Shown: positions 2,662 through 47,739 of the stretch, piece by piece
Layout of the letters: the number at the start of each line of letters is the position of its first letter
Numbering within the stretch: the first letter of the stretch is position 1
Assembly: GCA_015066805.1 (NCBI GenBank)
Contig: SVNP01000011.1
Span: 1 to 64,000 of the forward strand
DNA from: Ruminococcus sp.
GTDB lineage: Bacteria > Bacillota > Clostridia > Oscillospirales > Ruminococcaceae
DNA: 64,000 nt
Direction of reading: 5' to 3'
The notes under the pieces: model-generated
Database searches by the model: none
Told to the model about the DNA's origin: nothing
The model's input: only the letters and a program-made list of their open reading frames with translations
Translations under genes and position numbers: made by a program

Positions 2662-3990
2662 TCATCCTGTGGCCATCAGCAATTCAACTTGTGCCACAAA
2701 CCAACCGTCATCTTCATAAAAATCCACACTGCCGTTGTAGCGGTCGGCAATGCGTCGGATCGTCAGAATACCCAAACCATGTTCGGAAGTATTGCCTTTG
2801 GTGGTTTTCAGCTTTGGATTTGTCCGCAGAATGCTTTCTGCAATACGGTTTTTCACGCAAATCACCAATTGACGGTCAATATACGCAATGTTCACAAGAA
2901 TCGCCGGTGAGGGCTGTTGCAGTTCTGCTTCAATGGCATTGTCCAGCAGATGCCCCAGTAAGCTGCAATAATCAATACCTTGAATATCCGGAAGATCCGC
3001 CGGACAGTGACAAGAACATTGTATCTTCTGTTCTTTGGCATAGCTGAGTTTTGTATTCAGAACTGCATTGACAAATGGTTGATTGGTATGAACGATGCAA
3101 GCGGTTGCATTCAAGGATTCGCAGTAAGAATCTAGATACTGCTCTATTTCTGTGCGGTCATTCTCTTGCAGAAGAGCTCTCAGCGAAGTCACTGTAGCAT
3201 TAAAATCATGCCGCAGAATATGGATGGCTTCTTCCTGCTGCCTGACCGTTTCTGCGTATTGCATCTGATATTGCATCTGCATCTTAAGCTGTTCGTTTTC
3301 CAGTACGGTCTGATGATGCCGATTCAGCACAACGATCAGTCGGATCGCTATAAGATTGATAGCAACGATTGTCATATCCACGCCAAGCAGCAAAATCCTG
3401 CTGTTTTGCGTCATCTCCGATTGCAATACAGAGGATTGCACCATTACGATTGCGCCTACGGAAGCGGCAAAGATGCACAGCAGCAGTAACCATTCTGTTT
3501 TATGCAATCGTACTTTGCCTTTGCCAAGAATCTGAAGCAGTATCTGAAAGATGAGATAATTTGCAAGCTGTACGGATACCATCGTCAGCATCCGCAGCAA
3601 TCCTGATTCCGAATAAAGGCTTTCTAACGGTACATTGGTCACTGAACTGATAAAATTGCAGATGGTTGCAGAATTCAGCAGGATACATCCAAGGAAAAAT
3701 ACCGACACAAATGCTTTGGCGAGTAATTTCCCGGGTAAAACAAACAGCGCATACAAAAATACAACCAGGCAATAGATCACCATCAAAGCCCCTTCATAGT
3801 GGTAAGGTGCCATGATCATGTTCAGGAGCGTTGTTGTAAATGCAAACAAAACGGTCAGAACAAGCCAGTGTTTTCGCCCGTGGCGATCCTGCACATCATC
3901 GCCTAAAAAGGTACACACAAAGTGCATACCGATACTGCTTTCAATCAGGGTAATCAGCAGTTCCCAGCACTGCCACAATAAATCTGTCAT
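2662..3990 (-). CDS. agrC: AgrC-like sensor histidine kinase (GHKL type)
   Basis: This membrane receptor kinase probably senses the cyclic peptide made by the neighbouring agrBD. The N-terminal 200 residues are mostly hydrophobic, with six or so segments. Next come a short coiled region and the phosphoacceptor His in ILRHDFNA. The GHKL ATPase follows, with its N box (HLLDNAIEAE) and G box (EHGLGILTI), ending at residue 442. It lacks a classical HisKA domain, as AgrC proteins do. It overlaps agrA by 4 bp (ATGA) and is co-transcribed with it. Confidence 0.9.
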   Translation of the reverse strand: MTDLLWQCWELLITLIESSIGMHFVCTFLGDDVQDRHGRKHWLVLTVLFAFTTTLLNMIMAPYHYEGALMVIYCLVVFLYALFVLPGKLLAKAFVSVFFLGCILLNSATICNFISSVTNVPLESLYSESGLLRMLTMVSVQLANYLIFQILLQILGKGKVRLHKTEWLLLLCIFAASVGAIVMVQSSVLQSEMTQNSRILLLGVDMTIVAINLIAIRLIVVLNRHHQTVLENEQLKMQMQYQMQYAETVRQQEEAIHILRHDFNATVTSLRALLQENDRTEIEQYLDSYCESLNATACIVHTNQPFVNAVLNTKLSYAKEQKIQCSCHCPADLPDIQGIDYCSLLGHLLDNAIEAELQQPSPAILVNIAYIDRQLVICVKNRIAESILRTNPKLKTTKGNTSEHGLGILTIRRIADRYNGSVDFYEDDGWFVAQVELLMATG

Positions 3991-4718
3991 AAAATCTCTC
4001 GCATCCGATCTCTGTATTTTTGCTCTGTCGCTTCCCTGTAAGTACGTCCAAGGGGCAATGTTACGCCCGAGAATAATTCCACATTGGAAAAGCGCGACAA
4101 ATTCAGCTTTTTTACCGCATGAATATTCACAATAAACCGTCGGTGAATCCGAACAAACGCATATTGCACCATCAGTTCTTCGGCTTCGGTGATGGTTTGC
4201 CGTATCTGGATCAGGCTTTTGTTATTTAAGTGATAATCCGTAAAATGCGAACGGCTTTCCAGATAGAGAATATCACGGACACAAACAGTACGTTGTTCCC
4301 CAACACCCATATCCAGAGTCAGCAGTTCGTTTCGCTTTACATATGCAATAATCTTTCTGGCTACGCTTCTCAAGGATTCCTGCAATATTTGACGATCACC
4401 CTTTTGTACGAAATAAAAGGGGCGGTAATTGAAGCTGTCATACACCAGCTCGCTCTTTGAGGATACAAACAGGATCAATGGCTTATCCGATTGACGGCGG
4501 ATCTCCTTTGCAATATCAAAGCCGTTGCAATCGGGCATATAGATATCCAGAAACAGAATGTCAAAGGGTTCTGCGGAATGTGCATCCAGTAATTCTTTGC
4601 CGCCGGAAAAACAAAAAAGCTTACAGGAGAAGGTTTCATTTGCAAAGGTTTCCGCTACCACTTTTTCCACTTGCTTGAGCATGATGGGGTCATCATCACA
4701 GATCGCAGCACGCATCAT
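3987..4718 (-). CDS. agrA: AgrA-like LytTR response regulator
   Basis: A receiver domain (residues 1-125; acidic ICDDD, phospho-acceptor Asp in FLDIYMPDCNG) is followed by a LytTR DNA-binding domain (about 140-243; LESRSHFTDYH, FVRIHRRFIVN). The partner kinase is agrC downstream. I chose the ATG at 4718 (second Met at 4715) because AAAGGAG lies 11 bp before it; a longer frame upstream only translates the promoter and operator. LytTR proteins bind pairs of direct repeats about two helix turns apart, which is exactly what lies upstream at 4787-4825 and again at 40457-40495. Confidence 0.92.
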   Translation of the reverse strand: MMRAAICDDDPIMLKQVEKVVAETFANETFSCKLFCFSGGKELLDAHSAEPFDILFLDIYMPDCNGFDIAKEIRRQSDKPLILFVSSKSELVYDSFNYRPFYFVQKGDRQILQESLRSVARKIIAYVKRNELLTLDMGVGEQRTVCVRDILYLESRSHFTDYHLNNKSLIQIRQTITEAEELMVQYAFVRIHRRFIVNIHAVKKLNLSRFSNVELFSGVTLPLGRTYREATEQKYRDRMREIL

Positions 4719-4748
4719 TTTTACAAAATCTCCTTTGTCGTTTTTTAC

Positions 4749-4777
4749 ATTATACCAGATATTTTGAAGGACTTCAA
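4749..4777 (-). promoter_or_regulatory. agrA-agrC promoter
   Basis: Minus strand: -35 TTGAAG (4777-4772), 17-bp spacer, -10 TATAAT (4754-4749). The -35 lies 9 bp from the edge of the operator. Confidence 0.8.
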
Positions 4778-4786
4778 GGGGGGTTC

Positions 4787-4825
4787 GTCGTCGTTCGTGC
4801 CAAAGTTGCGTCGTTCGTGCCAAAT
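4787..4825 (+). promoter_or_regulatory. Probable AgrA (LytTR) operator, two 20-bp-spaced direct repeats
   Basis: The unit CGTCGTTCGTGCCAAA occurs twice with a period of 20 bp. The core GTCGTTCGT matches the LytTR half-site pattern (WMMGTTNRK) at seven of nine positions. It sits between divergent -35 boxes, 13 bp before that of agrBD and 9 bp from that of agrAC. All 39 bp recur, inverted, at 40457-40495. Binding by AgrA is inference. Confidence 0.75.
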
Positions 4826-4838
4826 TTTCCAAAAACTC

Positions 4839-4867
4839 TTGACTTTTCATTTTTTCATGATTATAAT
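4839..4867 (+). promoter_or_regulatory. agrB-agrD promoter
   Basis: -35 TTGACT (4839-4844), 17-bp spacer, -10 TATAAT (4862-4867). The operator ends 13 bp upstream of the -35, a position suited to class II-type activation. Confidence 0.88.
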
Positions 4868-4919
4868 GCTGGTAACGATGAAACCGCTCTTATCATCATA
4901 AAACGAAGGGGGAAAAGTG

Positions 4920-5564
4920 ATGTATCATAAGATTGCATGGTGGATGGTCGGGAAGCTGCATCGATGCAACCCGGCATTGGATGACAAGGACGCACAGGAG
5001 ATCTGTGCTTACGGAATCGAGATCACACTCTCCACGATGATGAATTTTGTGTTGCTGCTTGTGATCGGTGCGTTGACTCATACATTGATCCCTGCGGTGC
5101 TGTTTGGTGTAATTTTTGCTATCATCCGGCTGTACATCGGAGGATATCACTGTACCGGCTATTGGCAGTGTAATCTGACGTTCTGCGGCATCTATCTTTT
5201 GGTGATCCTGCTTGGAAAATTACTGACTCCCTATTGCGGAATCGATTATGAAATTCTGATTCTTATGTGGTGCGGTCTGGGCATCTGGTATCTCGGACCC
5301 GTAGAAAACTTGCACAAACCGACAACAGAAGCGCAACGAAAGCAGTGCCATACCATTGCTAAGGGCATTTTCCTTGCAGATTGTGCCATTGCCATCGGCT
5401 GCTATCTCATGGAGCCGTTTTATGGCGTGGTGGCAGCTTTGTCATTGCTTTCGGTTGTGGCATTGTTGCCGATTGGAACACTTACAGAAAGGAGGAGACG
5501 CTATGAAGCTGAAAAACAAGCTGGCACAGAGCCTGACTGCCTGTGCAACAAGCATTGCTCGTAA
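4920..5564 (+). CDS. agrB: AgrB-type autoinducer-processing peptidase
   Basis: This integral membrane cysteine protease should cut the AgrD precursor and close the peptide ring. The protein has 214 residues with several hydrophobic segments. The catalytic pair is visible as His77 in IGGYH and Cys84 seven residues later, which is the same spacing and even the same numbering as Staphylococcus aureus AgrB. I chose ATG 4920 over GTG 4917 because the GAAGGGGG site gives 7-bp spacing. Its 3' end overlaps agrD by 62 bp in another frame, so the two are translationally linked. Confidence 0.92.
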   Translation: MYHKIAWWMVGKLHRCNPALDDKDAQEICAYGIEITLSTMMNFVLLLVIGALTHTLIPAVLFGVIFAIIRLYIGGYHCTGYWQCNLTFCGIYLLVILLGKLLTPYCGIDYEILILMWCGLGIWYLGPVENLHKPTTEAQRKQCHTIAKGIFLADCAIAIGCYLMEPFYGVVAALSLLSVVALLPIGTLTERRRRYEAEKQAGTEPDCLCNKHCS

Positions 5565-5640
5565 GGCTGCCGGTCAGGTATCTGTTGGCTTTACCCATCA
5601 GCCCAAGGAGCCTGCTGCTCTGAAGAAGCAGAGCAAGTAA
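5503..5640 (+). CDS. agrD: AgrD-like autoinducing peptide precursor with Ser in place of ring Cys
   Basis: The protein has 45 residues: an amphipathic N-terminal leader (about 1-22), a core ending QVSVGFT (25-31), and an acidic/basic tail beginning HQPKEP. The tail matches the clostridial AgrD pattern; in Clostridium perfringens the mature peptide TSACLWFT is followed by HQPEEP. By that alignment the ring would be Ser27-Val-Gly-Phe-Thr31. The ring-forming residue is then Ser (lactone) rather than Cys (thiolactone); the only Cys (14) lies in the leader. Serine rings are known in S. intermedius. GGAGG precedes the ATG by 6 bp. Confidence 0.85.
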   Translation: MKLKNKLAQSLTACATSIARKAAGQVSVGFTHQPKEPAALKKQSK

Positions 5641-5700
5641 ACCCAATGTTTGCAGGGTGCCCGTTGTATGACGGGCATCCCAATAACAAACGGTAACACT

Positions 5701-5736
5701 GCACAAATCGCTTGATCCGATTTTGTGCTTTTCTCA
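5701..5736 (+). terminator. agrBD terminator
   Basis: GCACAAATCG pairs with CGATTTTGTGC around CTTGATC, followed by TTTTCTC. A second GC-rich hairpin (GGGTGCCCGT with ACGGGCATCCC) lies just before it at 5655-5681. Confidence 0.75.
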
Positions 5737-5973
5737 AAGACCACAAGAAATTTCGCAACAATCGAAAAGTCAGAACTTGGGGATCATGGATCTGACGAGT
5801 AGGAAAATAACGCCTGTCCCAAGGGGCTGTTTCCATTTCTGTTTGCTTATTTCTTTTTCTCGGCGGTGGTCGTTTCTGCAACTATATCGATCGCCGCAGG
5901 CAGGCTGCCCGTCCACACACCGCGGGCAGCTTGTCACCATAGAGCTTTGATGTTGTATTATTCGGGGATGTGA
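5737..5973. other. Non-coding stretch
   Basis: I see no supported gene. A hairpin with CTGCCCG and CGGGCAG arms lies near 5905-5932. Short open frames on both strands here show no recognisable domain. Confidence 0.5.
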
Positions 5974-6195
5974 GTCCGATGCATTAAGATAATATTGAGT
6001 CACAATGTGAATGGTGATGGTCGAATTAGTAACGAAGACAGAGTTCTCATAACTCAGTTTGTAGCAGAAATGCAAACGCTTACTTATGACCAGTATGTTG
6101 CAGCTGATGTCAATTTTGATAACATTGTTAACAACGTTGATGCTGCGATTATCAATCAGTATGTGGCTGGAACTCGAAATTCGTTCTTTAGCTAA
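5974..6195 (+). pseudogene. Orphan dockerin module, probably the 3' end of a broken gene
   Basis: The frame opened at 5974 encodes two calcium-binding dockerin repeats: VNGDGRISNEDRVLITQFVA and, 22 residues on, ADVNFDNIVNNVDAAIINQY. No enzyme domain, no signal peptide and no ATG start precede them; the first possible start is a TTG at 5995 without a convincing ribosome site. A stop lies in frame at 5971. This looks like a C-terminal remnant of a cellulosomal protein left after deletion. A very short expressed dockerin peptide cannot be excluded. Confidence 0.65.
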
Positions 6196-6249
6196 TACTG
6201 GAGAATGATCGCTAGCTTTCAATCTACTTTATACGGAAGGATGATTATC

Positions 6250-7311
6250 ATGAAGAAATACTGCGTTTGGATGTTATCTCTTGCAGTTCTCGCCAACGCT
6301 ATGGCATCCCCTGTTTACGCCGAAGAAACCCCAACATTCGTAGTGGAAAACGGTGCGCTGGTAATTCCCGATGGCATGACGGAAGAAGATGCAACCATAT
6401 ACTATCAGCAATATTTGCAATATCTGTATGAAAATGGAGATGCCAACTGCATTACGCCCGGCAATATTGTAATTGAGCCGGATGCATCCACATTACTTTC
6501 TGTTTCTTACAGCATGGCAGTGCCTTTTACATCGGTTACGGCAGATCTGTTATTGCCTGACGGAATCGTTCCCGATGTATCCGCAATGCGTGAAACCACA
6601 GTCAGTGCATCTGCAGATCGTGGAGATCTCAATGGTAATGGCGTTTTGGATTTGTCTGATATCCGCTTGGCACAGGATGAGTACAACCATAATCAGATGA
6701 TGAACAGTATCTTAGGTACAAACAGAATGCAAGCCGATATGAACGAAGACGGTAACTTTGACAGTCAGGATGTTTTTATGATGTATGAACAATATTGTTC
6801 CGATATGCTGGCAGCCAACACATTCTATGTATACGGTGGAAACACCGGTTTTGTCGCATATGATTCTGAAAATGGAAAGATCGTCTTTTTGTCATTACCT
6901 TCTTCTACAAGCAGTATTTTGATCCGGTGTCCTATTCTTGCCAACAACGCAAATTTTGTTCGTGGCGAAGTTACTTTACAAAATGTGCACAGCGAATACT
7001 TTACTACGGACCAGTTCCCTGTGGGATTTACAGAGGATGCAGTTGATCTTTCCGCCTACGAATTGATTGGCGAGCAAGTGCCCACAGTAGCAAAAAAGGG
7101 TATCATTTCTGCGTCCGGCTATGGTGATATCAACACCGATGGCAAAATGACCATTTCGGATGCCATTATGCTTTCCCGCTATGTTGCGGAGGATACCACT
7201 GTACCCATTACCGATGCAGGTATTGCAGTTGCCGATCTCAACGAAGACGGCAATGTGAATGCAGATGATACCACGGTATTGCTGAAAATGCTGGCAGGTA
7301 TGGCACAGTAA
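6250..7311 (+). CDS. Secreted protein with two dockerin modules
   Basis: The protein of 353 residues has a signal peptide (about 1-24, ending SPVYA). One dockerin-like module lies in the middle (about 126-185; DLNGNGVLDLSDIRLAQDEY and ADMNEDGNFDSQDVFMMYEQ). A second is at the C terminus (about 292-353; GDINTDGKMTISDAIMLSRY and ADLNEDGNVNADDTTVLLKM). The parts between (25-120 and 190-285) match no enzyme I recognise. ATG 6250 was chosen because GGAAGG at 6235-6240 would be too close to the earlier ATG at 6241. Its role may be linking or modulating scaffoldin binding. Confidence 0.82.
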   Translation: MKKYCVWMLSLAVLANAMASPVYAEETPTFVVENGALVIPDGMTEEDATIYYQQYLQYLYENGDANCITPGNIVIEPDASTLLSVSYSMAVPFTSVTADLLLPDGIVPDVSAMRETTVSASADRGDLNGNGVLDLSDIRLAQDEYNHNQMMNSILGTNRMQADMNEDGNFDSQDVFMMYEQYCSDMLAANTFYVYGGNTGFVAYDSENGKIVFLSLPSSTSSILIRCPILANNANFVRGEVTLQNVHSEYFTTDQFPVGFTEDAVDLSAYELIGEQVPTVAKKGIISASGYGDINTDGKMTISDAIMLSRYVAEDTTVPITDAGIAVADLNEDGNVNADDTTVLLKMLAGMAQ

Positions 7312-37341: not shown

Positions 37342-38874
37342 TTATTTTGGAGATACGGTTACGGTGTAGGAATCTCCTGTTACCTCGCCGATGGTAATGG
37401 TCACACCGGGGTCAATGGCTTCGTTGCCGCTGCCATCATACCAGCCAAAGCCGGATACGCTGTTGTTGATGACAGAACCAGTTTTGAACACACCGCCGCC
37501 ATCATTGACCAGACGGATCAGACGAATGCCTTCATCATTGTAATCGGTATAGTAGGAGCCGTTCTGATACTTCAGGTAGCTGCCCCAGTAATCGCTGAAC
37601 ATTTCTGCATGGATATGGAATGCACAGATACCGCTGTCAATGGTCTGCCACCATGAGTTTTTGATCATGGCATTGTTGCCCTGATCGGTACCGTACTCCA
37701 GAATAAAGTATTCGGAGCAATAGTTTTCATTCAATGTGCCATAAGGAATGATCAGGCAATTGCCGTCATCGGTCTGGGCATTGTGCAGCGTAAAGCTCTG
37801 GGTACCCTTGGCAGGATCATACACCTGGATCTGATCCTCACGGAACCAGCCCAGCATCAGCTTGGAGAATGCGGAAAAATCGGACTGGGCATCGGTATCC
37901 ATCAGCTCGGTACCGGCAGAGCCGTGCATACCTTCCGCATCATTAGAATAGTACAAATAATAATCCGGCAGACCCATGCAGTGACCCATCTCATGCAAAT
38001 AAGTTGAATTGAAATCCACAGGATTGGAGGGTACTGCATAACCGGTAATGATATTGCCCACAGCAACACCATCCACACGGTAAGCAGCGTCACCAAAGGC
38101 ACCGGAGCAAGGCCACCAATAATCGTTGCTGGCACTTTCCGGCACACAGATCAGCGTTGCATCAATGCGGCCGTCATTATCGGCATCATACTTGGTGAAA
38201 TCTTCGCTGTCCTTAAAGGCCTCATAGCATTCTTCTACAATGCGAACCTTATCATCATTATATACAGAGATGCTGTTTTGTGCGGTATAGGCAAAGGTTT
38301 TGCCTGTCAGACGGAAGCTGCCCTTGGAAGAACGCTCATAGAATGCGCTCATGCTCTCAAAGGGATAGTTTGCGGAATTGGGATCAGCAGGACCAAAGGC
38401 GATCTGATCGACCTGCTCTGCGGAAAGCTTATTGCCAAACTGACAATCGGGAAAATCAATGTAGAAGATCACCAGATTACCTGTGACATCACTAGGCAGA
38501 GAGCTGTTCACCTGTGCAATGGGCGGTGTAATGAACTTGCTTTCCACATCGGGGATCGTAACCTCCTCATAAATGCCGATCCATTCCATCTGCTGCATCA
38601 CACAACGCTTCAGCAAGGTCAGATCCACGGCATTGAGCATGGCATTTTCGTTCATATCCGCCAAAGCTGCCACATCGGGAGAAATACTCTCCAGCATAGC
38701 AATATGCTTTTGCAGAATGACCGCATCGGCAACGGTAATGGTATCATCTCCATTGAGATCGCCCCGCCAGCCCACACGAACCCATTCGGTGGCAGCCTGC
38801 ACGGGAGCAGGCATGGCACTGACCGCCAGTTGTGCTGCTGCAAGGCAGGCAAGCACTTTGTTTCTTAATTTCAT
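37342..38874 (-). CDS. Secreted M6-like metallopeptidase with N-terminal dockerin
   Basis: The protein of 510 residues has a signal peptide (about 1-28), then a dockerin directly at the N terminus (38-95; GDLNGDDTITVADAVILQKH and ADMNENAMLNAVDLTLLKRC). A catalytic domain follows with the zinc site HEMGHCMGLPDYY (about 294-306), typical of immune-inhibitor-A-type M6 peptidases. It would place a protease on the cellulosome. The second dockerin repeat has lost part of its calcium site (NENAM). Confidence 0.85.
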   Translation of the reverse strand: MKLRNKVLACLAAAQLAVSAMPAPVQAATEWVRVGWRGDLNGDDTITVADAVILQKHIAMLESISPDVAALADMNENAMLNAVDLTLLKRCVMQQMEWIGIYEEVTIPDVESKFITPPIAQVNSSLPSDVTGNLVIFYIDFPDCQFGNKLSAEQVDQIAFGPADPNSANYPFESMSAFYERSSKGSFRLTGKTFAYTAQNSISVYNDDKVRIVEECYEAFKDSEDFTKYDADNDGRIDATLICVPESASNDYWWPCSGAFGDAAYRVDGVAVGNIITGYAVPSNPVDFNSTYLHEMGHCMGLPDYYLYYSNDAEGMHGSAGTELMDTDAQSDFSAFSKLMLGWFREDQIQVYDPAKGTQSFTLHNAQTDDGNCLIIPYGTLNENYCSEYFILEYGTDQGNNAMIKNSWWQTIDSGICAFHIHAEMFSDYWGSYLKYQNGSYYTDYNDEGIRLIRLVNDGGGVFKTGSVINNSVSGFGWYDGSGNEAIDPGVTITIGEVTGDSYTVTVSPK

Positions 38875-39015: not shown

Positions 39016-39053
39016 AAAAATCCCCACAGAGGCATAACCCTCTGTGGGGTGAT
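39016..39053 (-). terminator. Terminator of the dockerin/cohesin operon
   Basis: Minus strand: CCCCACAGAG pairs with CTCTGTGGGG around GGTTATGC, followed by ATTTTTA. Confidence 0.85.
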
Positions 39054-39059
39054 TGATAC

Positions 39060-39872
39060 TCAACTTACGCTAATTGTAAAATAAACAGTGACATAATCCA
39101 GCATGGGATCTTCCACAGGATAGCCTGCGATATAGTCTGTAACGATGTCAGCATCCGTATTGGTGAGAACACCATCGCCGTCTGCATCCATCAGAGCAAA
39201 GCAAACGCCCTCGCCCACATTGGTGGTGGTGATATAGTTCATGAAGTTATTCTCCGTAACAGTCACACCGTTGGCATTGGAAACGATCTGACGAATCAGC
39301 GATGCGTCAAAAATACGGATGTTGCCGTCTGCGTTTGCATCACCCACACGGTATACATTGTGCACGGCACACTGGTTGGACATGGAGCAAGAAATGTACT
39401 GTTTGTTATCGTTTGTCATCTGATCTACGATTACCGCTTCCAAAGGAGATACATTTGCTGCACTTCCAGTTTTCCTCAGGTAGAATGAAACGATTGCACC
39501 ATTGGAAGTTATATTGGCTTGAGATATCATTGAAAAGCCCACCGTACCGCTATTATGGTCGGCGTATTTCGCACATAAAATGTTCAAAGGCGTTTGGTGT
39601 ACGGGCTTATTATCGTCATCCACCACAGGCTCAAAGTTTACATTGTCATAATAGAAACAAACACCCAACCCGGCAAATCCGTTGTTTTGAGCAATGGATA
39701 ACGTGACCTTGTAGTCGCCGACTTGTGCGCCTACTTCAGCGGCAGTCAACTTTGTGATGCTGACAGACAAATCATTAGCCGCACTTGCTGCCAATGCATC
39801 TGCATTGTTTGTGAAAGCAAATGCCACAATTGCGATCAGCGAAAATACGAATGTCATGATAATCTTTTTCAT
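39060..39872 (-). CDS. Cohesin-dockerin adaptor scaffoldin (ScaC-like)
   Basis: The protein of 270 residues has a signal peptide (about 1-32), one cohesin-like beta domain (about 35-180; YKVTLSIAQNNGFAGLGVCF, GTVGFSMISQANITSNGAIV) and a divergent C-terminal dockerin (about 185-260; GDANADGNIRIFDASLIRQI and MDADGDGVLTNTDADIVTDY). One cohesin plus one dockerin is the layout of small adaptor scaffoldins such as ScaC of R. flavefaciens, which change the binding specificity of the complex. ATG 39872 follows AAAGGAAA. It is second in an operon with the small dockerin protein. Confidence 0.78.
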   Translation of the reverse strand: MKKIIMTFVFSLIAIVAFAFTNNADALAASAANDLSVSITKLTAAEVGAQVGDYKVTLSIAQNNGFAGLGVCFYYDNVNFEPVVDDDNKPVHQTPLNILCAKYADHNSGTVGFSMISQANITSNGAIVSFYLRKTGSAANVSPLEAVIVDQMTNDNKQYISCSMSNQCAVHNVYRVGDANADGNIRIFDASLIRQIVSNANGVTVTENNFMNYITTTNVGEGVCFALMDADGDGVLTNTDADIVTDYIAGYPVEDPMLDYVTVYFTISVS

Positions 39873-39947
39873 GGTTTTTCCTTTCTGCCCATTGAGAGGG
39901 GCGGTCAATCCGTTGGCGGCCTATAGGCGGCCATAATTACTACATGG

Positions 39948-40277
39948 TCATTGTTTGAAAAACTCCTCGGGAGAAATCGGCTCGTCGGTGGTCAGTGTAT
40001 AAGAATAATACTGTAGGATAAAAAATGCGTCAAGCGTGTCGATAATACCTTCGCCAATTACCTCGGCTAGCACCGTCTGTTCGTCAGTTAGCGGACTTGG
40101 CATATGAAGTACTTCAACGAGGCAGTAATGGTCTAGCACCGCCATTACATCCACCGTATCTACCTTACCATCCATAGTCACATCACCGAGAGAGTAGGTC
40201 TCTTCAGCCGCAGCGGGCATAACGCAGGCACCTGCCAACAGGGCAAGGCTTGCAAGGGTTGCAATCAGTTTCTTCAT
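39948..40277 (-). CDS. Small secreted dockerin protein
   Basis: The protein of 109 residues has a signal peptide (1-23, ending MPAAA) and then little more than one dockerin: GDVTMDGKVDTVDVMAVLDH and a second repeat with a degenerate calcium loop (AEVIGEGIIDTLDAFFILQY). No catalytic part is present. It may plug cohesins or bridge complexes. AAGGAGGAAA precedes ATG 40277. First gene of the operon controlled by the promoter and operator at 40415-40495. Confidence 0.85.
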   Translation of the reverse strand: MKKLIATLASLALLAGACVMPAAAEETYSLGDVTMDGKVDTVDVMAVLDHYCLVEVLHMPSPLTDEQTVLAEVIGEGIIDTLDAFFILQYYSYTLTTDEPISPEEFFKQ

Positions 40278-40414
40278 AGTGGTTTCCTCCTTCATTCAGT
40301 TATAGGTGTGGGTGGGCTTTCGCCCTCGTACATGGTTTTACTAAAGGTTGTGTGCATTTCTTAGTGCATCGGTTTCACCCCCTCGGAACATGGATACATT
40401 TACCTTTCAATTAT

Positions 40415-40443
40415 AGTGTACCATATGTAACGATAATTGTCAA
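40415..40443 (-). promoter_or_regulatory. Promoter of the dockerin/cohesin operon
   Basis: Minus strand: -35 TTGACA (40443-40438), 17-bp spacer, -10 TACACT (40420-40415) with a TG extension. The operator lies 13 bp upstream of the -35. The leader is about 130 nt and holds a GGGC-GAAA-GCCC hairpin. Confidence 0.8.
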
Positions 40444-40456
40444 GTATTTATGTAAT

Positions 40457-40495
40457 ATTTGGCACGAACGACGCAACTTTGGCACGAACGACGAC
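40457..40495 (-). promoter_or_regulatory. Second copy of the AgrA-type operator
   Basis: All 39 bp are identical, in inverted orientation, to 4787-4825. Read towards the dockerin/cohesin operon it has the same direction and the same 13-bp gap to the -35 box as at agrBD. The distance to the trkA -35 on the other side is 26 bp. Control by AgrA is inferred from this match. Confidence 0.78.
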
Positions 40496-40521: not shown

Positions 40522-40550
40522 TTGACTTTCCCTGAAAAATGGTGTATAGT
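40522..40550 (+). promoter_or_regulatory. trkA-trkH promoter
   Basis: -35 TTGACT, 17-bp spacer, -10 TATAGT, about 54 bp before trkA. Confidence 0.82.
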
Positions 40551-40609: not shown

Positions 40610-41968
40610 ATGAATATCATCATTGTTGGCTGCGGCAAGGTGGGCGAAGCCCTTGCGGAACAGTTAAATGAAAATGGAAACGACATCACAGTTGTGGATA
40701 TTGACAGTGATCGGGTAGAATACATCGTCAATAAGCATGATGTGTTGGGCGTGGTAGGCAACGGTGCTACCCATGCTACGCTGGAGGAAGCGCGGTCTGA
40801 GGATGCCGACCTGCTGATTGCAGTCACAGGCTCCGATGAACTGAATCTGCTTTGCTGCCTGATCGCACAGAAGGCAGGTAACTGCCAGGTCATCGCCCGT
40901 GTACGCAATCCGGAATACAGCTCGGAGGCTTCTTATCTGAAGCGGGAGCTGGAGCTGGCTATGGTCATCAATCCGGAACAGGCTGCCGCCGCCGAAATGA
41001 CCCGAATCCTGCGGTTTCCTTCCGCCATTAAGATCGAAACCTTTGCCAGAGGCAAAATCGAGCTGCTGAAGTTTATTCTGCCGGAGGATTCGCCGCTGGT
41101 AGGCTGTACGGTCAAAGAGATCACCACCAAGCTGCACTGCGATGTACTGGTCTGCACGGTGGAACGGGATGACGAAGTCTACATTGCAAACGGTGATTTG
41201 CTCTTCCGCAAGCGGGATGTGATCTCCATTATCGCCTCCCCCCAGAATGCGAATCGTTTCTTCCACAAAATCAATTATGTGGCGGATTCCGTCAAGGATG
41301 TTATGATCGTAGGTGGTGGTGAGATCAGCTACTACCTGTGCCAGATGCTTACCAGAGTCGGCATCCGCACTACTATTATAGAGAAGAATCAGGCACGCTG
41401 CGATGAGCTTTCCATTCAACTGCCGGAAACACTGGTGATCCACGGCGATGCTGCCGATCAGGAGATCCTGCTGGAGGAAGGTCTGGAAACCGTGGATGCT
41501 TTTGCGGCATTGACCAATCTGGATGAAGAAAATATACTGCTTTCCCTGTTTGCCAAAAGCAGGAGCAAGGCAAAGCTCATTACCAAAATCAACCGGATTG
41601 ATTTTGATGAAGTCATCAAAAGCCTTACGCTGGATACTATCATCTACCCCAAAAGCGTGACCTGTGAAAGCATCATCCGCTATGTGCGTGCCATGAAGAA
41701 CTCTCTCAATAGCAATATTGAGACCCTCTACCATATTATCAAGGGCAAGGTGGAAGCTGCTGAATTCTTCATCCGCCACGATAATGCCCTGACAGGTACG
41801 CCTCTGTATCAGCTCCGATTCCGCCCCAATGTACTCATCGCCGGTATTCTGCGGGATAATGCAGTCATCACCCCTAAAGGTCAGGATGTAATCCAACCGG
41901 GCGACAGCGTGATCGTGGTTTCCAAGGATCTGGTGCTGAACGATATTACCGATATTCTGCGGGACTGA
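40610..41968 (+). CDS. trkA: TrkA potassium-uptake regulator
   Basis: The protein of 452 residues has two RCK units, each with a Rossmann NAD-binding site (IIIVGCGKVGEALAEQL at 3-19 and MIVGGGEISYYLCQML near 233) and a TrkA_C domain. It binds NAD(H)/ATP and gates TrkH from the cytoplasm. It is followed after 24 bp by trkH. Confidence 0.95.
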   Translation: MNIIIVGCGKVGEALAEQLNENGNDITVVDIDSDRVEYIVNKHDVLGVVGNGATHATLEEARSEDADLLIAVTGSDELNLLCCLIAQKAGNCQVIARVRNPEYSSEASYLKRELELAMVINPEQAAAAEMTRILRFPSAIKIETFARGKIELLKFILPEDSPLVGCTVKEITTKLHCDVLVCTVERDDEVYIANGDLLFRKRDVISIIASPQNANRFFHKINYVADSVKDVMIVGGGEISYYLCQMLTRVGIRTTIIEKNQARCDELSIQLPETLVIHGDAADQEILLEEGLETVDAFAALTNLDEENILLSLFAKSRSKAKLITKINRIDFDEVIKSLTLDTIIYPKSVTCESIIRYVRAMKNSLNSNIETLYHIIKGKVEAAEFFIRHDNALTGTPLYQLRFRPNVLIAGILRDNAVITPKGQDVIQPGDSVIVVSKDLVLNDITDILRD

Positions 41969-45405: not shown

Positions 45406-47739
45406 TCATGTCTGTTCGGATTGCATGAGCTGCTCCACAATATATTGCAGAACGACCACAGCATCCACGGTATCAATTTTGCCATCGGCATTGGTATCGC
45501 AGTTCTGAAGCTGTACAGCGGTCAGTTCAGGTGCATTCTGATTCAGCACCGCAGTATAGTGCTGCAGCATACTGATGACATCAATGGTATCCACCACACC
45601 ATTATCCGTAAAATCACCAAAGCAATATCTTGTGCAGACTGCCTGCAAAGCATCTGCAGCCGCCGCACCTGCTGATGTTACCTCGGAATAGCTTTCTGCT
45701 GCTTCAATGGCAGCGAAACCATCTGCAAGAATGACGGAAAGGGTATCCAGAGCATCTGCATCGTAACGTTCAAAGGGAAGGGCATCATACACAGCTTGCA
45801 GCGATTGCACCGCCTGATTCTTTGCTTCCGGCAGCCAAAGCCCCGAAAGGAAGCCCTGCCGCTTGGTGAGGAACGTATCCAGATACCCGATGCATTCCTC
45901 ATAGGTATAGCCGTTTACAGGACCCAGGGGTTTGTTTTTGCCCAGCATATTCCACAGTGCATTGTTCATGGCAACGGAAGCCGACAAGTTCTGCCCCATG
46001 GCTGCCATGCCTGTGGCAGAGGTTTCATCGCAAAGCTCCAGAAGCATGGGCTCAAACACTTCAAAATAGCACTTGACCATATCGGCGTAGTATTCTTCCT
46101 TCTGATACATGGTACCCAGCCAGCCCAGCGGGACCTCCAGACCGTCATCTGCCACAAACTGCCGATGCACCGGCAAATGGGCAGCATACAGCGTCAGAGG
46201 ATTGCAGCAGCCGTGACCGTCTACCGCACGGGAAAAGTTTGCATAGGCAAGGTCAAAATCCCATACAGGTCCACAATGGAATTTGCCGTCACCGTACAGA
46301 TCGGATTCCTTCCAGAAGAAAAAGCTGGTATAGGAGCCGTCGGCATTGGCAGTGATCTCCTGGATCAGATAGGCTCTCATGAAATCATCCACATCTATGT
46401 ATTGAGAATAATGCTTGCCTGCTGCGTTGTAGCCATCTTCGGCGTAGATAGCATCCTCCATCTCCTGCACGAACTGCCGCACATATAAAACCTGCGCTTT
46501 GGAGGGATTTTCGGGATCCTTGAACTGTACACACTGCCCTCTTGTGGTGACAAAGCCGCAGACATCGGTTTGTGCTTCGTAACGGTTGCTGGTCTGGAAC
46601 TCAATGAGATAACCGCCTGTAATATCCGCAGGATCTGTTGCCACATCACGGTAGCGATAGCTTCCGCGTTCACAGGTTTTCAGCACACCGTTGGAGGAAA
46701 TGATCTTGCAGTCTTCCGGCTTTACGGTGTTAACAGCCTCGGTTTCTTCTTCCAGATCCACAATATCCACACGCTGGCTCTGGATCTGCACACGCTCGAA
46801 CAACTGATAGGTGCCGCGGTATTCGCCATCGGCATACAGATCCACATAAATGGAATCCATGGTGTATTCCAGACCGCTGCCTTGGCTCAACGCCATGGCC
46901 ACACTGTTGCGGATGTGGGTATGATCCAGATAATTGGAAAGCAATGCCCATTTTTTGGCCTTACCCAGCCCAAAAAGATCTATTTTCTTGGGCATTTTCA
47001 GGTTGTAGGATTTCTTTTTGCTGTAATCCCACGAGCTGTTGCCTCTGCCGTCGATCTTATCATAAGAGCCCAGATATTCCACCGTACCGTCTGCGTTGAA
47101 CATCAACGTATCGCCGCTGTCGGAATTGGCTTTACTGGTATCCACAAAATCCAGACCGCCGGTCTGTGTGGAAAGAAAGATACTGCCAAGATCCGATTGC
47201 AGCACCTTCAGCGTACCGCAGTCCGTATCTCCCACACGCACGGAAAACACATCGGCAGTGCTTAACAGGTCGGTGGTTTTTCCCGATTCCACAGCCACAT
47301 CATTCAGATACAGTGTACCTGCGGCAGTATAAGAAATAGTCAGCGCAGCACGGTCTGCCACTGCCGGCAGACACAGATATCGGCATTCTTCATACTCACT
47401 GTAAAACCACCGGGTATAATCCAGAGCAGACACCACATTCTTTGCCAGATCGGAAACCGTAAAATCCGTCACCGGAATGGATTCATACAAATAGCTTGTG
47501 GCTGTAGTGGTAGTCTCGGCAGCGATATACACAGGAGCGGTGGTCACCGAAGGATCCGCAGGGGTATTCATTTCCTCTGCGGAAACGGGCATCATAGGTA
47601 CGGTAAAGGATTCCTTTGCGGCCGAAACCATAAGAAAACCGCCCACCAGCACCAAAGCACCCAGCACACAAAAGCCCACGCTTTCCCGATCTGCCTTGCG
47701 TTTACAGCCTTGCAGCCATTCTTTGATTTGTTTTTTCAT
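45406..47739 (-). CDS. CotH-type kinase protein with dockerin
   Basis: The protein of 777 residues has an N-terminal membrane anchor or uncleaved signal (about 22-41), a Thr-rich stretch, a beta domain (about 105-190) and a CotH domain (about 200-560; DGRGNSSWDYSKKKSYNLKM, LLSNYLDHTHIRNSVA, PVWDFDLAY with the metal-binding Asp). A C-terminal dockerin follows (about 712-772; GDFTDNGVVDTIDVISMLQH and CDTNADGKIDTVDAVVVLQY). CotH proteins of spores are protein kinases; dockerin-bearing versions are known in cellulosomes but their role is unclear. Confidence 0.87.
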   Translation of the reverse strand: MKKQIKEWLQGCKRKADRESVGFCVLGALVLVGGFLMVSAAKESFTVPMMPVSAEEMNTPADPSVTTAPVYIAAETTTTATSYLYESIPVTDFTVSDLAKNVVSALDYTRWFYSEYEECRYLCLPAVADRAALTISYTAAGTLYLNDVAVESGKTTDLLSTADVFSVRVGDTDCGTLKVLQSDLGSIFLSTQTGGLDFVDTSKANSDSGDTLMFNADGTVEYLGSYDKIDGRGNSSWDYSKKKSYNLKMPKKIDLFGLGKAKKWALLSNYLDHTHIRNSVAMALSQGSGLEYTMDSIYVDLYADGEYRGTYQLFERVQIQSQRVDIVDLEEETEAVNTVKPEDCKIISSNGVLKTCERGSYRYRDVATDPADITGGYLIEFQTSNRYEAQTDVCGFVTTRGQCVQFKDPENPSKAQVLYVRQFVQEMEDAIYAEDGYNAAGKHYSQYIDVDDFMRAYLIQEITANADGSYTSFFFWKESDLYGDGKFHCGPVWDFDLAYANFSRAVDGHGCCNPLTLYAAHLPVHRQFVADDGLEVPLGWLGTMYQKEEYYADMVKCYFEVFEPMLLELCDETSATGMAAMGQNLSASVAMNNALWNMLGKNKPLGPVNGYTYEECIGYLDTFLTKRQGFLSGLWLPEAKNQAVQSLQAVYDALPFERYDADALDTLSVILADGFAAIEAAESYSEVTSAGAAAADALQAVCTRYCFGDFTDNGVVDTIDVISMLQHYTAVLNQNAPELTAVQLQNCDTNADGKIDTVDAVVVLQYIVEQLMQSEQT

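Follow-up and report, generated by a model that had tools for sequence, protein, structure and literature searches.

The agr locus and the dockerin operon

The window, a stretch of 64,000 nucleotides from a Ruminococcus sp. genome (G000), holds a complete agr locus with agrB, agrD, agrC and agrA as well as an operon that encodes dockerin proteins, and the same 39-bp operator stands at each of them (Table 1). AgrC and AgrA scored far under the cut-offs of the staphylococcal equivalog models. Promoter-like sites in positions 4700-6300 numbered two, against 2.7 expected from shuffles. The core of AgrD has no cysteine, the sole one in the protein being residue 14. By register, the ring of the signal is predicted to be a Ser-lactone pentapeptide, SVGFT, because counting back from the conserved proline gives S27 to P37 here and S25 to P35 in Clostridium thermocellum (PMC5322536, excerpt). 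The C. thermocellum protein Clo1313_2818 likewise pairs a Ser-lactone pentapeptide with a cellulosome producer; in contrast to the gene set described here, it does not lie in an apparent agr operon, and the excerpt of that paper describes no link to cellulosome genes (PMC5322536).

Two further dockerin stretches follow agrD on the same strand: a remnant with no visible start about 370 bp downstream (6007-6165) and a 368-aa protein with two dockerin stretches about 560 bp downstream (6205-7311). Neither a promoter-like nor a terminator-like site was picked up by a simple scan of the plus strand from agrD to these stretches, so read-through from the agrBD promoter into 6007-7311 is possible.

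The initial annotation had read the second operon as encoding a small dockerin protein and a cohesin-dockerin adaptor, and the first half of this description stands. The best solved match of gene 1 is a ScaH dockerin (8ajy_B, E 7.9e-8), with a Pfam dockerin score that falls under the cut-off (E 0.0069). The cohesin label of gene 2 was not confirmed, as its N-terminal domain has no Pfam cohesin and matches the cohesin-like stretches of the same genome only weakly in a profile comparison (E 7e-4, probability 26%). The best PDB matches of the gene 2 family profile fall in the dockerin part, and a structure model had a pLDDT of 37.6, too low to use. It is possible that this domain is cohesin-like. 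An inverted repeat after gene 2 may mark the end of the operon. Directly downstream of the operon is an M6-type peptidase-like protein with an N-terminal dockerin (37342-38874).

Table 1. Positions of the agr genes, the dockerin operon and the operator copies, numbered within the window unless a contig is named
Feature	Position	Strand	Description
agrC	2662..3990	-	GHKL sensor kinase, 442 aa; Pfam PF14501
agrA	3987..4718	-	Receiver and LytTR response regulator, 243 aa; Pfam PF00072, PF04397
agrA(C) promoter-like site	4749..4777	-	TTGAAG-17-TATAAT; on the operator's other side
Operator copy 1	4787..4825	+	Between divergent agrA and agrB
agrBD promoter-like site	4839..4867	+	TTGACT-17-TATAAT; 13 bp from operator
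agrB	4917..5564	+	AgrD-processing protease, 215 aa; Pfam PF04647, E 5.5e-33
agrD	5503..5640	+	45 aa; TIGR04223, 37.7 bits (cut-off 19)
Inverted repeat	39022..39049	-	CCCCACAGAGG..CCTCTGTGGGG; after gene 2, read by eye
Gene 2	39060..39908	-	Signal peptide (by eye); dockerin at the C-terminus, N-terminal domain possibly cohesin-like; probable ATG start at 39872
Gene 1, small protein	39948..40295	-	115 aa; signal peptide (by eye) and single ScaH-like dockerin
5' leader	40296..40414	-	80% identity with site-3 counterpart (134/167, counted from operator edge)
Dockerin operon promoter-like site	40415..40443	-	TTGACA-17-TACACT; 13 bp from operator
Operator copy 2	40457..40495	-	Oriented towards dockerin operon
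trkA	40610..41968	+	Divergent neighbour of copy 2, promoter-like site at 40522-40550; alternative target
Operator copy 3	G000:C4:5866-5904		Perfect copy outside the window, on contig C4 of the same assembly

Three perfect operator copies in one genome

The operator is built from two perfect 16-bp direct repeats with a 20-bp period, each half reading TTTGGCACGAACGACG and carrying the motif CGTTCGTGCC; in copy 1 the halves lie at 4789-4804 and 4809-4824 and are read on the minus strand. As the initial annotation had claimed, the element between agrA and agrB recurs without a mismatch before the dockerin operon: copy 1 on the plus strand is the reverse complement of copy 2 at every letter (39/39), and these 39 bp are the longest string common to both stretches. 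Its observation that the two share their orientation, the 13-bp gap to the -35 box and the 17-bp spacer was also confirmed, the boxes being TTGACT at 4839 for agrBD and TTGACA at 40443 (minus strand) for the operon.

In the window the half-site has four matches at up to three mismatches, where 0.48 are expected. The genome-wide half-site search that had been proposed covered the assembly of this genome (2.07 Mb, 39 contigs, 79.6% complete) and yielded 14 half-sites at the same threshold, namely six exact ones in three pairs, the third pair being new, and eight single ones with three mismatches each. Since the reversed half-site pattern gave 42 matches in the assembly, the number of single half-sites, none paired with another listed one, is not above chance. 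At up to three mismatches the assembly contains no pair besides the three perfect copies, and with such a count the idea of a common dispersed repeat was rejected.

The third copy, on contig C4, precedes the gene of a 370-aa protein (L015:4578-5690) whose C-terminal dockerin again has the ScaH dockerin 8ajy_B as its best solved match (E 2.7e-5). It stands 13 bp from a TTGACA box with a 17-bp spacer, so that gap and spacer are the same at all three copies. Each of the two copies outside agr is thus followed by a dockerin gene, and the third copy strengthens the link that had been proposed from the second. Dockerin matches in this genome number 69 and cohesin matches 12. No divergent gene was seen at site 3 among frames of at least 90 aa: the sole plus-strand frame of this size, 122 aa long, has its start within the operator, and a permease-like gene, encoded on the opposite strand and running towards the operator, overlaps it. 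Elsewhere in the genome, a protein at L144:1327-2199 (G000:C22:117756 region) is a likely paralogue of the site-3 protein that lacks an operator; the two have TLEEAIALCE in common (by eye) and their dockerins fall in the same clade.

Sites 2 and 3 resemble each other beyond the operator, with 134 of 167 aligned bases (80%) identical from the operator edge into the leader, and they probably arose by copying of one promoter-leader unit and are not independent. Such a likeness over about 170 bp would also be expected if the operator belonged to a mobile cassette or were a repeat without function that was copied recently. We regard this as highly improbable and largely refuted already, given that there are three copies only, each at a promoter of the same geometry, and that the copy at agr has little in common with sites 2 and 3 beyond the operator and the promoter boxes. 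Further, the operator is better conserved than its flank, as at 80% per-base identity the probability of 39 unchanged bases is about 2 in 10,000 (0.8 to the 39th power), and the same motif stands at agr in a congener described below. With an identical operator in an 80% identical flank at two sites and an unlike flank at agr, the operator seems to be kept for its own sake, which is as expected of selection.

The leader common to sites 2 and 3 was considered as an RNA element and rejected. It had no Rfam family above the gathering score, its folds were not unusually stable (z of 0.57 and -0.29), and no match longer than 33 bases was found in 29 congeners.

A probable LytTR-type operator and its distribution

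Staphylococcal agr consists of AgrBDCA, with the LytTR domain of AgrA bound to paired direct repeats. The locus described here shares with the staphylococcal type the complete gene set, a LytTR response regulator and a direct-repeat site at the agrBD promoter, but it differs in the core CGTTCGTGCC, the 20-bp period, the predicted Ser-lactone peptide and the predicted dockerin-protein targets. Described LytTR sites are repeats of 9 bp near the -35 box, separated by 11-13 bp and most commonly by 12 bp (PMC6193735, excerpt). The operator fits this arrangement, its direct repeats lying upstream of -35 and separated by roughly two turns of the helix, although its period of 20 is a minority spacing among the described sites. 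The LytTR Regulatory Systems HdrRM and BrsRM are similar in their direct repeats directly upstream of -35, their 11-13 bp separation and their positive feedback; in them the partner of the LytTR regulator is a membrane inhibitor protein (PMC6193735, excerpt), and here it is a sensor kinase and a peptide. The AlgR-type site of Pseudomonas, CCGTTCGTC, has the core CGTTCGT, the same as that of the half-site here (PMC4064291, excerpt).

We searched for the operator type in other genomes. AgrA matches at E 1e-20 or better occur in 5 of 30 genus genomes (own included), and apart from the genome's own no score comes near that of congener G026, whose AgrA is 43% identical to the one described here. 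The gap between agrA and agrB of G026 contains TGGCACGAATG twice with a 21-bp period. No second site was found in the G026 assembly (82% complete, about 570 contigs). In a further scan of the genus genomes one forward match stood against five of the reversed control, so that only the perfect G026 match is meaningful. Among 396 family genomes (own included), matches at up to two mismatches were found in G000, G304 and G398 only, with none for the reversed control, and the G304 site adjoins the gene of its LytTR regulator. At the G398 site (L043:1501-1531), GTGCC lies 7 bp before a -35-like TTGATT, and the 3-kb locus showed no regulator gene.

When the exact core pair, spaced by gaps of 8-10, was sought in 257 Gb of genome contigs, five stretches matched, against about 0.1 expected by chance with equal base frequencies. 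Two of these adjoin genes of LytTR response regulators. The one in the Lachnospiraceae MAG L040 lies just upstream of the response regulator and reads towards the gene opposite it, while that in Olsenella intestinalis (L037) follows a pair of regulator and kinase-like genes and reads away from any start codon seen. No LytTR neighbour was present among the frames read at L038, from the same Olsenella genome, and none was seen at L039 and L041, where both sites fall in repetitive coding sequence. LytTR domains pass the Pfam cut-off in all four of the neighbouring regulators, from G026, G304, L040 and L037. We found no relatives of AgrA in viral contigs.

Because the motif recurs in the agrA/agrB gap of G026 and beside LytTR regulators in L040, Olsenella and G304, the 39-bp element is very probably a LytTR operator and here that of AgrA. 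The assignment made by the initial annotation, from direct repeats upstream of -35, is supported by the position of the motif beside LytTR regulator genes in other lineages. A different LytTR protein could use the operator, either a second regulator whose gene is present in the genome (contig C34) or one encoded in the missing fifth of an assembly that is 79.6% complete, but we consider this quite improbable as the operator sits between agrA and agrB and a similar motif is likewise placed in G026. As a hint only, one alignment position has R in each of the five motif-linked regulators (QIRQT, RVRQS, RSRMT, RCRMT and RVRAT) and Y in the C34 regulator (TIYKK).

Reading towards agrB, the distance from GTGCC to -35 is 7 bp in G026 (TTGACT) and 17 bp at the three sites of our genome. 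It is also 7 bp in G398 and G304, as counted by hand, with a poor -35 of TTTATT in the latter. The 10-bp difference from G026 is one helical turn, and the same face of the DNA would be kept. This longer distance speaks for a doubtful alternative in which AgrA occupies all three sites and yet acts as a repressor at sites 2 and 3, or serves mainly trkA at site 2. So does the separate promoter-like site of trkA, 26 bp past the operator. Against this alternative, orientation and the 13-bp gap at the dockerin promoter are those seen at agrBD, site 3 shows no divergent gene, and direct repeats directly upstream of -35 go with activation in described LytTR systems (PMC6193735, excerpt).

The link between operator and dockerin genes rests on one genome, G000. 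No further dockerin-linked site was found in 100 genomes, the 396 family genomes or the 30 genus genomes (own included each time), and the co-occurrence of operator and dockerin genes across species that the initial annotation had looked to for support was not seen, only the agr site having been found in G026. Homologues of gene 2 are present in 4 of 29 congeners (G003, G007, G027 and G028); the G007 one (L080) was not included in alignment A1. Among the loci looked at in G003, G027 and G028, a small dockerin gene stands directly upstream of the homologue in G003 and at both G027 loci, and none was seen beside that of G028. The pair in G003 and G027 indicates that small dockerin and gene 2 form an old unit. 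Both the operator pattern and a close AgrA are absent from these four congeners, and the readable upstream regions (two G027 loci and one of G028) have no phased direct repeat at 12 of 14 bases. Given this occurrence of the pair without the operator, the operator would have been added in this lineage or lost in others. In another congener, G019, a fragment of an agrA-like gene (L033:2545-2898) with 49% identity over 85 residues seems truncated and adjoins a dockerin-like protein (by eye).

Putative anchor-type dockerins and a proposed agr switch

To place the operator-linked dockerins, we aligned 71 rows comprising 66 of the 69 Pfam matches (C4:34605, C1:45306 and C22:33131 were left out), the small dockerin and four dockerins of relatives. 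In the resulting tree the dockerins of gene 1 and the site-3 protein fall in a group of 15 rows (support 100/99) that includes 11 of 67 own rows, with the dockerin of gene 2 outside it. For a second tree, of 66 dockerins, we removed seven rows that were long or short (the dockerin of gene 2, W6622, L127, L098, L138, W6007 and REL_L079s) and added two scaffoldin dockerins. The dockerins of gene 1 and the site-3 protein again fall in a clade of 15 rows with support of 100/100, from few columns and with an unsettled bootstrap; since the clade label was given after the first tree, this agreement is no independent test. Two large scaffoldin-like proteins also have their terminal dockerins in this clade. 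One of these proteins (L150:2554-7224) has four Pfam cohesins in a whole-protein scan, and the other (L151:143-3586), where that scan found no cohesin, has two cohesin matches in the genome search (E 2.1e-9 and 9.1e-4, one below the cut-off). A CotH-kinase protein of the window (45406-47739) has a dockerin of the same clade.

In R. flavefaciens, group-4 dockerins, which include those of ScaB, CttA and ScaH, bind the cell-surface anchor ScaE (PMC5301203, excerpt). Since both operator-linked dockerins are matched best by a ScaH dockerin among solved structures and have scaffoldin dockerins in their clade, we infer that those of gene 1 and the site-3 protein are of the anchor-binding type. They differ from ScaH in that one of the dockerins here stands alone, without enzyme or cohesin.

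Together, the same switch before the peptide-signalling genes of this fibre-degrading bacterium and before dockerin genes suggests that cell-to-cell signalling controls part of cellulosome attachment or assembly. AgrA binding, activation, the cohesin partner and the dependence on density we infer as follows. AgrC would sense the AgrD peptide and give rise to phosphorylated AgrA, two LytTR domains of which would occupy the two direct-repeat halves, two helical turns apart and upstream of RNA polymerase. Judging from the shared operator and promoter geometry, we think it likely that AgrA binds the 39-bp element and that its phosphorylated form activates agrBD and the two dockerin promoters. Activation of agrBD would constitute positive feedback, and the identical sites and spacing would bring the dockerin operon (39.1-40.3 kb) and the 370-aa dockerin protein of contig C4 under the same signal. 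In this way the agr signal may alter the set of proteins docked on the cellulosome's anchor-type cohesins.

Once made, the dockerin proteins could bring new proteins to the surface of the cell. The product of gene 1 could instead block the anchor and release the complex, which is conceivable because it is a lone dockerin of the kind that the scaffoldins carry. A version in which the agr signal detaches or re-docks the cellulosome, with the lone dockerin (39948-40295) competing with the same-clade scaffoldin dockerins for the anchor cohesin, appears unlikely. In staphylococci, agr drives biofilm dispersal, and if this version were true, the freeing of cells or cellulosomes from the fibre would be its counterpart.

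Cellulosome regulation is usually accounted for by substrate sensing, as in a review in which up-regulation of quorum-sensing genes on plant biomass is also mentioned (PMC12484212, excerpt). A LytTR gene has been linked with cellulase genes in Cellulosilyticum ruminicola (PMC5733062, excerpt), and agrA and agrB have been counted in 199 rumen genomes (PMC10838665, excerpt). In the open-licence literature searched we found no description of agr control of cellulosome genes and saw none of agr control of ScaH, and the excerpts of PMC2721979 and PMC12817449 had no agr-cellulosome content, in keeping with the statement of the initial annotation that no described link of this kind is known in Ruminococcus. 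The regulon seen is tiny, with three operators. If the proposed activation by AgrA is true, a peptide signal acting on anchor-type dockerins would couple attachment to fibre to cell density.
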